Shown: one piece after another, positions 3 to 37,365 of the stretch
Layout of the letters: the number at the start of each line of letters is the position of its first letter
How positions within the stretch are numbered: the stretch's first letter is position 1
Source of the DNA: Spirochaetales bacterium
GTDB taxonomy: Bacteria; Spirochaetota; Spirochaetia; Treponematales; UBA12059
Length of the DNA stretch: 64,000 bases
Assembly (NCBI GenBank): GCA_016926955.1
Contig: JAFGNN010000032.1
Coordinates: 1 to 64,000 of the forward strand
Direction of reading: 5' to 3'
Made by a program: the position numbers and the translations under genes
Notes under the pieces: generated by a model
Database searches by the model: none
Told to the model about the DNA's origin: nothing
Seen by the model: only the letters and a program-made list of their open reading frames with translations

Positions 3-164
3 CGAGGACGAGGCGCAGGAAGCGCCGAGAGGAGCTTCGAGGCGGGCTGGAGGCTCGAGCCAGGATGGCGAGAGCCGGAAGCCGAATACGCGCTCCGCGC
101 GTTCGCCGAGAGGAATGGATTGAAGGCCCGCGGGCGCGGCGTCCCCCATTCTCCGCCTACCTGA
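3..164 (+). CDS. Possible C-terminal end of an unknown gene (partial)
   Basis: An open frame runs in from the left edge and stops at 162-164. The translation includes tryptophans and a helical-looking stretch around AEYALRAFAERNGL, and most codons in the middle end in G or C like the real genes nearby. It would converge on typA with about 57 bases between the stops. No family is recognised, and a chance frame in GC-rich DNA is a real alternative. Confidence 0.27.
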   Translation, partial: RGRGAGSAERSFEAGWRLEPGWREPEAEYALRAFAERNGLKARGRGVPHSPPT

Positions 165-20216: not shown

Positions 20217-22001
20217 ATGGCGTACCTTAAACGGACCGCGAATTGCGGCCAGCTCCGCGCGAGCGACGCGGGGAAGACGGTCACCCTCAACGGATGGGTG
20301 TACCGCAAACGGGATCACGGCGGCATCTCCTTCATCAACCTGCGCGACCGCCACGGCGTGACGCAGGTCGTCGTCGATTCCGACGCCGGGGCGGCCCTGC
20401 GCGCGGCCGCCGACGAGCTCAAGAGCGAATACTGCATCGCGGCGCGCGGCACGGTCCGCGCGCGCCCCGATTCCATGGTCAACCCGAACATGGACACCGG
20501 CGCGATCGAGCTCAAGGTCGATGAGCTCCAGATCCTCTCGCACTGCGAGACCCTGCCCTTCGTCATCGACGAGAAGGTCGACGCGAAGGAAGACCTGCGT
20601 CTCAAGCACCGCTACCTGGACATGCGCTCCGCCTCCATGCAGCGCAAGCTCAAGCTCCGCCACGAGGCGGCCCTGGCCGTGCGCAACTTCATGGCCTCCA
20701 GGGGCTTCTACGAGATCGAGACCCCCACGCTCATCAAGACCACGCCGGAAGGCGCGCGCGACTTCCTGGTGCCGAGCCGGGTGAACCCCGGCAAGTTCTA
20801 CGCGCTGCCGCAGAGCCCGCAGCTGTTCAAGCAGATACTGATGGTCGGCGGCTTCGACCGCTATTTCCAGCTGGCGCGCTGCTACCGCGACGAGGACGCG
20901 CGCGGCGACCGCCAGCTCGAGTTCACCCAGATCGACCTCGAGATGTCCTTCGTCGAGCGCGACGACGTGCTGTCCCTGGTCGAGGAGATGGTGGCCGACC
21001 TCTTCCGCAAGACCATGGGGATCGAGCTCGAGACCCCGTTCACGCGGATCGCCTACGACGACGCCATCGAGCTCTACGGCACCGACAAGCCGGACCTCCG
21101 CTTCGCCCTGCCCATGCAGGACTTCGCGGCGCTCGCGGGCACGGGTACCTTCCAGGCCTTCCATGACGCGGTGGGCTCCGGCGGCGCGGTCAAGGCGCTC
21201 GTGGTGCCCGGAAGAGCCGACTATTCGCGCAAGCAGATCGAAGAGCTCGAGGCCCAGGCCAAGGTCTACGGCGCAAAAGGCCTGGCCTTCATGAAGGCCG
21301 GTGCCGGCGGAGCGCTGGAAGGCGGCGTCTCGAAGTTCTTCGCGGGGCAGGAGCGGACCATCCTCGACCGTCTCGGAGCGAAGGAAGGCGACCTCATCCT
21401 GCTCGTGGCGGACGCGAAGAAATCCGTCGCCTGCGCTTCGCTCGGCGCTGTCCGTTCGAAGCTCGGCGCGGAGCTCGGACTCTGCGACCCGAAGACCTTC
21501 AAGTTCGCCTGGGTCATCGACTTCCCCATGTTCGAATGGAACGAGGACGAGAGGAAGTGGGATCCGGCGCACCACATGTTCACCATGCCGCAGGAGCGCT
21601 TCCACGCCACCATGGAGAAGGAGCCGGGCCCGGTGAAGGGCGACCTCTACGACCTGGTGATGAACGGCTACGAGATGGCCTCGGGCTCCATCCGCATCCA
21701 CGACCCGGAGCTCCAGAAGCGGGTGTTCAATATCGTCGGATTCAGCGAGGAGGAAGCCATGGGCAAGTTCGGCTTCCTCGTCGAGGCCTTCAAGTACGGA
21801 CCGCCGCCGCACGGCGGCGCCGCGCTCGGCTTCGACCGCCTGATCATGCTGATGTCCGGCGAGAGCACCATCCGCGAGGTCATACCCTTCCCCAAGAACA
21901 CCTTCGGCATAAGCCCTTTAGACGACTGCCCCAGCGAGGCGGAAGCCAAACAGCTCGAGGATCTGCACATCCGCATCGTCGAGAAGTTGGATTCCAAATA
22001 G
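20217..22001 (+). CDS. aspS: Aspartyl-tRNA synthetase
   Basis: Charges tRNA(Asp). The 594-residue length and the insertion domain fit the bacterial-type enzyme. It has an N-terminal anticodon-binding OB fold (about 1-110), class II motif 2 (FQLARCYRDEDARGDRQ, about 218-234), a GAD insertion (about 300-410) and motif 3 near the C-terminus (GFDRLIMLM). The end SPLDDCP...VEKLDSK is normal for the family. A leaderless promoter precedes it. The last ~75 coding bases are repeated, with synonymous changes, twice downstream (22091-22183 and 22381-22440). Confidence 0.97.
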   Translation: MAYLKRTANCGQLRASDAGKTVTLNGWVYRKRDHGGISFINLRDRHGVTQVVVDSDAGAALRAAADELKSEYCIAARGTVRARPDSMVNPNMDTGAIELKVDELQILSHCETLPFVIDEKVDAKEDLRLKHRYLDMRSASMQRKLKLRHEAALAVRNFMASRGFYEIETPTLIKTTPEGARDFLVPSRVNPGKFYALPQSPQLFKQILMVGGFDRYFQLARCYRDEDARGDRQLEFTQIDLEMSFVERDDVLSLVEEMVADLFRKTMGIELETPFTRIAYDDAIELYGTDKPDLRFALPMQDFAALAGTGTFQAFHDAVGSGGAVKALVVPGRADYSRKQIEELEAQAKVYGAKGLAFMKAGAGGALEGGVSKFFAGQERTILDRLGAKEGDLILLVADAKKSVACASLGAVRSKLGAELGLCDPKTFKFAWVIDFPMFEWNEDERKWDPAHHMFTMPQERFHATMEKEPGPVKGDLYDLVMNGYEMASGSIRIHDPELQKRVFNIVGFSEEEAMGKFGFLVEAFKYGPPPHGGAALGFDRLIMLMSGESTIREVIPFPKNTFGISPLDDCPSEAEAKQLEDLHIRIVEKLDSK

Positions 22002-22060
22002 GCCTGGATGAGGTCAGGTAGCGCGGAGCGCTACCGCTACCATCATTTCCTCTCCGAAAA

Positions 22061-22089
22061 CCGGGAGCCCGCGATGAGCGGGCTCCCGG
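22061..22089 (+). terminator. Hairpin after aspS, possible terminator
   Basis: CCGGGAGCCCGC (22061-22072) pairs over 12 bp with GCGGGCTCCCGG (22078-22089) around GATGA. It is the second hairpin of unit R0. There is no T run. A related 13-bp hairpin stands at 22351-22380. Confidence 0.5.
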
Positions 22090-22090
22090 T

Positions 22091-22183
22091 ATGATTGCCC
22101 CAGCGTCGCGGAAGCGAAACAGCTCGAGGATCTGCACATCCGCATCGTCGAAAAGGCGGACTCGAAGTAAGCCTGGATGAGGT
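22091..22183 (+). repeat. Second copy of the aspS 3' end, complete with stop codon
   Basis: Encodes DCPSVAEAKQLEDLHIRIVEKADSK followed by TAA, almost the same as the real aspS end, then the same GCCTGGATGAGGT trailer. Many differences from the true gene are at third codon positions, so this copy evolved under coding constraint before or after duplication. It is not attached to an aspS body. Confidence 0.88.
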
Positions 22184-22380
22184 GGTCGCGCCGCGCGACC
22201 ACTACAATCCCTTCCATGCCGAAAGCGCGCGTAGCGCGCATGAGGTGGTCGCGCCGCGCGACCACTACAATCCCTTCCATGCCGAAAGCGCGCGAAGCGC
22301 GCATGAGGGGGTCGCGCCGCGCGACCACTACAATCCATTCCTCTCCGAAAACGGGAAGCCCGCGCGAGCGGGCTTCCCGT

Positions 22381-22440
22381 ACGACTGCCCCGGCGAGGCG
22401 GAAGCGAAGCAGCTCGAGGATCTGCATATCCGCATCGCGG
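22381..22440 (+). repeat. Third, truncated copy of the aspS 3' end
   Basis: Matches the aspS tail from ACGACTGCCCC to CGCATCG, encoding DCPGEAEAKQLEDLHIRI. It then diverges and loses the stop codon. It ends about 80 bases before the HD-GYP-like gene. Confidence 0.85.
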
Positions 22441-22509
22441 GAGAGGCGGCCCCGCGGCGGCCGGTCGAAAGGCTCGCGGGCCGCACTTGCGCGCCGACCG
22501 GAGCGAGGC

Positions 22510-22515
22510 GATACT
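22510..22515 (+). promoter_or_regulatory. Leaderless -10 box of the HD-GYP-like gene
   Basis: GATACT ends eight bases before the ATG at 22524, with no ribosome site between. It fits the spacing seen at aspS and other leaderless genes, but no good -35 was found. Confidence 0.4.
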
Positions 22516-22523
22516 GGCCGGCG

Positions 22524-37157: not shown

Positions 37158-37300
37158 TGCCACAGAGACACAGAGACGAGAAAGGCTCGGGAACACTCCC
37201 GGGCCTTTTCTTTTTCCCGGACTTATCATCCCTCCTTCCTGACTCCCTCTTCCGTTTTCTCTCCATGTCTCAGTGTCCGCGTCGCTTTCGGTGCGGAAAG
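37158..37300. repeat. Diverged CACAGAGACACAGAGA-type palindromic repeat region
   Basis: The left side (GCCACAGAGACACAGAGACG at 37159-37178) and the right side (TTTTCTCTCC then TGTCTCAGTGTCC around 37254-37278) are imperfect reverse complements around a terminator hairpin. Repeats with this CACAGAGACACAGAG signature are common intergenic elements in environmental bacteria. The element is degraded and fills part of the gap between the ATPase and ZIP genes. Confidence 0.5.
37181..37215 (+). terminator. Rho-independent terminator of the ATPase gene
   Basis: AAAGGCTCGGGA (37181-37192) pairs over 12 bp (one G-U) with TCCCGGGCCTTT (37197-37208) around ACAC, followed by TCTTTTT. Confidence 0.85.
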
Positions 37301-37365
37301 GTTTATTGCCCGCTCTTCGCGCAGGCGACCTCATCCGCGGTTCATTTCTTCTGTCGGCGGGGCGC

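Follow-up and report, generated by a model that had tools for sequence, protein, structure and literature searches.

The aspS Locus and Its Array

The window, the whole stretch of 64,000 nucleotides that was analysed, contains an intact aspS gene ending with its stop codon at position 22001 and followed at once by an array of hairpin-forming units and displaced copies of the gene end (Table 1). The order after the aspS body is T1-u1-T2-u2-u3-u4-T3, with T1 being the live gene end, T2 and T3 the displaced tails and u1 to u4 the units. The repeats form a 107-nt family with 69-79% identity and contain exact repeats of up to 55 nt, which exceeds chance by far. The four units have a common layout, GATGAGG-hairpin1-CTACAAT/CTACCAT-linker-TTCC-CCGAAA-hairpin2. 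Both the two extra aspS ends and the four units with a shared hairpin-linker-hairpin layout had been described in the original prediction, and both are present. The alternation of tails with units that it also proposed holds for T1-u1-T2 and does not extend to u2-u4, which form a 63-bp tandem before T3. The differences between T2 and aspS, said to fall mostly at third codon positions, are indeed mostly, although not solely, synonymous, with GAG>GTC and TTG/GCG changing residues.

Table 1. Features of the aspS array and further unit copies in the window
Feature	Position	Strand	Description
aspS	20217..22001	+	594 aa, intact; live tail T1 is the last ~80 bases, from GACGACTGCCCC at 21921
Unit 1	22002..22090	+	GCCTGGATGAGG; hairpin 1 GGTAGCGC/GCGCTACC (22017-22035); linker CTACCATCATTTCC; CCGAAA; hairpin 2 (22060-22090); model R1 match 22007-22091, 51.5 bits
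Displaced aspS tail T2	22091..22170	+	TAA stop codon intact; differences mostly synonymous
Unit 2 (63-bp tandem unit)	22171..22240	+	Model R1 match 22176-22240, 63.6 bits
Unit 3 (63-bp tandem unit)	22239..22303	+	Model R1 match, E 3.8e-12
Unit 4	22302..22380	+	Second hairpin unit-1-like, ACGGGAAGCCCGC/GCGGGCTTCCCGT (22351-22380)
Tail T3	22381..~22454	+	Decayed aspS end without stop; native downstream DNA adjoins directly
Native intergenic flank	22455..22520	+	22456-22520 matches sequence downstream of G001 aspS (G001:C16:53333-53397)
Dispersed copy of unit	37278..37335	-	Model R1 match, 41.9 bits
Weak dispersed copy of unit	87..150	-	Model R1 match, 20.7 bits, E 0.003

The array is absent from the remaining two genomes of the genus, G001 and G002, whose aspS genes pass into native downstream sequence within ~20 bases. 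The G001 stretch matching 22456-22520 starts 16 bp from where the aspS match ends. Since T3 adjoins the native flank that follows aspS in the congeners, this most distal tail is the original aspS end, and the added DNA is everything between 22002 and 22380, placed upstream of it.

The Dispersed Double-hairpin Unit

The unit structure was set by hand on units of near-equal length (alignment A5), as MAFFT and RNAalifold applied to units of mixed length gave a poor structure that was dropped. A search with the covariance model, termed R1 and calibrated briefly, finds 62 copies in the host genome. The congeners have 48 and 46 and genus g9 has 9 and 12, with a few elsewhere in the family and none in the sampled genomes of families f3, f4 and f5. 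The unit core reads GATGAGG-hairpin1-[CTACA]ATC..TTCC..CCGAAA-hairpin2. Over 97 distinct copies 91.3% of cells are paired compared with 76.2% in shuffles, and the covariation score is 0.316 compared with 0.082 in shuffles, 0 of 500 of which reach the observed score. The alignment is fitted to the model and the slid-column controls are therefore fairer than the shuffles; when the partner columns are slid, the score collapses at every slide to at most 0.046. The compensatory stem changes and further unit copies anticipated from the window are both borne out, and the array is far from identical in all relatives.

On the reverse strand GTAG or GTCG often stands before the unit hairpin (30 and 14 of the 99 aligned copies, respectively). 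Because GTAG occurs in only 30 of these 99, the unit is best described as REP-like instead of as a proven REP family. No Rfam family is matched in a search of the window, and the weak Rfam matches in related loci are tRNA or chance. Units lie within intergenic DNA, as do tRNAs, so that their proximity alone is unconvincing and a duplication test was used instead. Many units (L116, L119, L135, L136, L139 and others) sit within a larger inverted repeat, ACCACGGAGGCACGG...CCGTGCCTCCGTGGT, which is another dispersed element of the host genome.

Recurrence at aspS in Other Genera

The arrangement of tail, hairpins and tail is present at aspS in the host, in G010 and G015 (genus g9) and in G006 (g5), G008 (g7), G004 (g3) and G005 (g4), with remnants of an array in G016, G017 and G020. 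This places aspS arrays in about six genera of the family, a count that ignores kinship and draws on one spirochaete genome per species, mostly MAGs, with the number of independent events being a judgement by genus. The hairpins differ and the left breakpoint is common, the arrays always restarting at GAYGAYTGCCC or a decayed form of it. Plain aspS ends are found in G001, G002, G007, G013, G018, G019 and G021 and in other families, and 64 aspS ends of other taxa show no comparable array. The second unit of G006 is placed cleanly inside the displaced aspS tail, between GTCGAT and CAGAAG. In G004, G005, G006, G008 and G020 the live aspS stop is followed by GGGCARTC, the reverse complement of the restart sequence. 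Such an inverted copy, termed T', is not found in the host aspS array or at aspS of G010 and G015.

The base composition of the gene end also varies. Third-position G+C in the last ~25 aspS codons shifts by a mean of -0.24 in array carriers compared with -0.07 in the others, the larger drop in carriers (L038, L039, L048, L049, L052, L058 and L059) having a Mann-Whitney P of 3e-4 uncorrected for kinship.

The Same Anatomy at groEL, a dtxR-like Gene and tRNA Genes

The tail-hairpin arrangement, which the original prediction had proposed seeking at other genes, is found at groEL, at a dtxR-like gene and at tRNA 3' ends. The groEL end of G015 (ATGGGCGGGATGGATTACT) recurs after the units, and the breakpoint is repeated there in inverted orientation over 16 nt. 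A G001 gene on contig C4 (L163, G001:C4:66298), which appears dtxR-like by eye from its translation, has a duplication of 34 bp lying within the gene and short of the stop codon, and the live protein ends in EARRR-stop, formerly SVRRPKE-stop. At the host tRNA on C57 the duplication is perfect (60/60 bp), runs from the T-loop through the terminator and is accompanied by a 23-nt inverted copy, several hairpins and one unit. The G015 C14 locus has a duplication of 49 bp with (near-)identical copies. Duplication sizes are ~80 bp at host aspS and 18-84 bp elsewhere. Those of the tRNAs begin in the T-loop, and the inverted breakpoint copy T' precedes the hairpins.

At 9 of 22 host tRNA loci tested, the tRNA's own 3' end is repeated downstream in both direct and inverted orientation, compared with 0 of 462 mismatched tRNA/downstream pairs. 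The convincing triples in a T-T'-T scan of 1.24 Mb of the host genome, T being the direct copy, are tRNA-end loci; the scan also returned one overlap artefact within the aspS array, and simulated sequence for half of the data yielded none. Four of the nine tRNA loci (L205, L210, L211 and L221) have other hairpin cargo in place of an R1 unit between the copies. The anatomy thus extends beyond the unit, and the unit itself may be a passenger.

A second hairpin cargo lies between the inverted and direct tRNA-end copies in the 3' regions of host tRNAs at L205, L211, L221, L140 and L114. It is composed of hairpins with AAGGATGG/CAGGAAG-type loops followed by GAGGCGGGCTGGAGG-like sequence, a further hairpin and CCGGAAGC, and at C11 and G015 C14 a REP-like unit appears to lie inside one of the loops of this cargo. 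A weak Rfam match had suggested tmRNA as a target at G001:C16:1; the sequence is identical to the 3' end of the tRNA at host C47:83364, and the tmRNA reading is rejected.

Interpretation of the Arrays

The recurrence of this layout at aspS in related genera, at groEL and many tRNA genes and at an E. coli tRNA locus points to a recurring route by which small hairpin elements enter gene ends while the gene stays intact. The best reading of the array is that short elements able to form hairpins inserted one after another at the aspS 3' end. The loci display insertion, duplication and usually an inverted breakpoint copy. As for how these arise, we hold with a little more belief than doubt that small hairpin elements inserted at the 3' ends of genes and that each insertion duplicated a long stretch of target, by which the gene end was regenerated. 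The hairpin element would then be flanked by two target copies, the upstream one completing the gene and the downstream one redundant. The element would act as single-stranded DNA, the 3' end of which an HUH-type nuclease would link to the nicked target; a small hairpin or a favoured motif, such as the tRNA T-loop or, in aspS, the junction between ATGG and ATG, would mark the place. The gene end would be copied anew by repair synthesis that starts at the upstream 3' end. The T' sequence, which precedes the hairpins in most other cases, could be a fold-back product of this repair or a guide to the site, and the 63-bp tandem u2-u4 would be a later product of ordinary unequal recombination. In vitro, TnpA_REP can cut hairpin DNA in single-stranded form and join it, and IS200/IS605 relatives pick sites by short guides (PMC8266576), which makes a strand-transfer model natural. 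The nearest candidate enzymes in the host species are the REP-associated transposases (RAYT), to which the link is weak. The evidence for RAYT transposases as the mobiliser is only suggestive, and as most RAYT-type genes examined are not beside units and only about a third of the units have GTAG, the enzyme assignment is only a candidate. The lack of T' at aspS of the host, G010 and G015 and the four tRNA loci with other cargo also count against the insertion reading.

The original prediction offered either an integrating element that uses the aspS 3' end or a cassette-like exchange of gene ends. The empty site in two congeners and the same breakpoint in other genera favour the former, as do the like arrangement at other genes, the dispersal of units through the genome and the strong covariation. 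The latter is not supported, since in recent cases (G006, G008 and host C57) the two tails are (nearly) identical copies of the end of the gene that they follow, and the dtxR-like duplication, ending short of the stop codon, has changed the C terminus; this looks like a target duplication and not like an imported end. A separate explanation is site-specific recombination, in which tiny cassettes carrying their own gene end are moved by a tyrosine recombinase or integron-like enzyme and T'-hairpins-T acts as a folded attC-like site. A start in the T-loop and a regenerated gene end are typical of integrases and are what the tRNA duplications display; the T'-hairpin-T order mirrors the R''..R' of integrons, and the aspS tails of carriers are poorer in third-position G+C than the gene body. 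We nevertheless regard this explanation as improbable, given that T is different at every target gene, that recent duplications match the end of the gene beside which they lie, that the dtxR-like duplication ends inside the gene and has changed its C terminus and that no integrase was noticed beside the arrays. An old, simple tandem duplication of tail and hairpin, maintained for its structure in the 3'UTR or as a terminator, is highly improbable. The 63-bp units u2-u4 are clearly an event of that kind, but a duplicated tail plus unit would end in a unit, whereas the terminal tail is bare against the native flank, and it is this together with the empty sites in the congeners that disfavours the idea. 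The hairpin sequences moreover differ between genera at the same breakpoint.

The main rival is a two-step process, somewhat unlikely in our view, in which duplication proceeds without a transposase. Template switching at hairpins or terminators would copy gene ends, leaving T' as its footprint, and REP-like hairpins would later go into the spare copy, which has no function, at a preferred site. Inverted copies of resident sequence, of which T' is one, are typical of template switching, and a G002 tRNA has T-terminator-T' without a unit or second T. A brief repeat of the sequence on the upstream side of the breakpoint stands immediately ahead of the hairpins in G006, G016, G020 and E. coli, as it would if the unit had gone into an additional copy of the target. 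Published tandem REP clusters also repeat flanking DNA (PMC3116915, PMC3733652). Against this, the same breakpoint in several genera and, always in the T-loop, in tRNAs of another phylum is hard to obtain by random template switching, and no clean duplicated tail without any hairpin is found among the loci examined.

Comparison with Known Systems

REP-like palindromes are abundant in bacteria, and their manner of spread is unsettled. Insertions that leave long, readable gene-end duplications reveal insertion points, the order of events and empty sites. The units resemble REP, REPIN and BIME elements in being short palindromes that are scattered through intergenic DNA in tens of copies (62 in the host) and occur in tandem clusters. 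They differ in that GTAG at the hairpin foot, present in >90% of members of most REP families (PMC3733652), occurs in about a third of the spirochaete copies, and in that long gene-end duplications with an inverted target copy are not found in the REP literature searched. RAYT-type proteins are present, one of which, encoded on C14, passes the NCBIfam RAYT cut-off (81.1 vs 80) with two others below it. A unit lies near two of the three host Y1 genes and one G001 gene, and most RAYT loci examined are without one.

RAYT-type genes are also placed directly downstream of tRNA-Gly and its terminator at L173 (G015:C8:150092-150710) and L176 (G010:C1), and at L173 part of the tRNA end, inverted, also precedes the gene. 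An autonomous relative is a possible reading of these loci. A second tRNA end is not found at either of them and so an autonomous version flanked by gene-end copies is not claimed. Separately, at L170 (G029:C6:110522) a Y1 transposase gene is flanked by a strong direct repeat (GGTAGCAGCAACCGCTTTTTTGTAGTG...). Integron arrays have the order core-insert-inverted core-hairpin-core, which the order T-tail-T'-hairpin-T resembles as a likeness only; the loci have no core sequence in common, the T sequence being different at each gene.

The closest parallel is the E. coli tyrT/tyrV repeat, the comparison covering the tRNA-Tyr locus only. In K-12 the last 19 bp of tRNA-Tyr (AATCCTTCCCCCACCACCA) recur at 178-bp spacing, each repeat containing hairpins and the inverted copy GGGGAAGGAT and matching Rfam RtT (RF00391). 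In strain SK1144 the two tRNA genes are separated by only 33 bp, which contain no RtT, and relative to this strain K-12 has an insertion flanked by a 19-bp duplication of AATCCTTCCCCCACCACCA. RtT is present in 4,680 of 5,426 E. coli genomes, at 1-9 places per genome. The K-12 repeats were reportedly described long ago by Egan and Landy in 1978. An explanation of them, or of gene-end duplications beside REPs, is not found in the literature searched, and as far as that search shows their link to the spirochaete gene-end arrays is new.

As in the spirochaete loci, each RtT repeat begins anew with the upstream gene's 3' end, and hairpins and an inverted copy lie between. This layout of direct and inverted copies with hairpins is seen at aspS of G004, G005, G006, G008 and G020, the host aspS being without the inverted copy. 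The RtT restart point, between GTTCG and AATCC in the T-loop, is close to the T-loop position of the spirochaete tRNAs. The hairpin sequences are unlike those of the spirochaete units; model R1 finds no match in E. coli, and the RtT covariance model matches E. coli L204 only and none of the spirochaete loci searched. The parallel makes the mechanism genetically testable in E. coli, a model organism of which thousands of strains have been sequenced and in which the array is present, absent or variable in copy number. We tentatively suggest, with more doubt than confidence, that tiny hairpin insertions without coding sequence make up a general class, represented in at least two phyla. Its members would target gene 3' ends (tRNA T-loop, aspS, groEL), restore the end of the gene during insertion and carry a guide T' of 8-23 nt, complementary to the target, that spans or abuts the insertion point, and the E. 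coli tyrT repeats would be the first of them to have been described.
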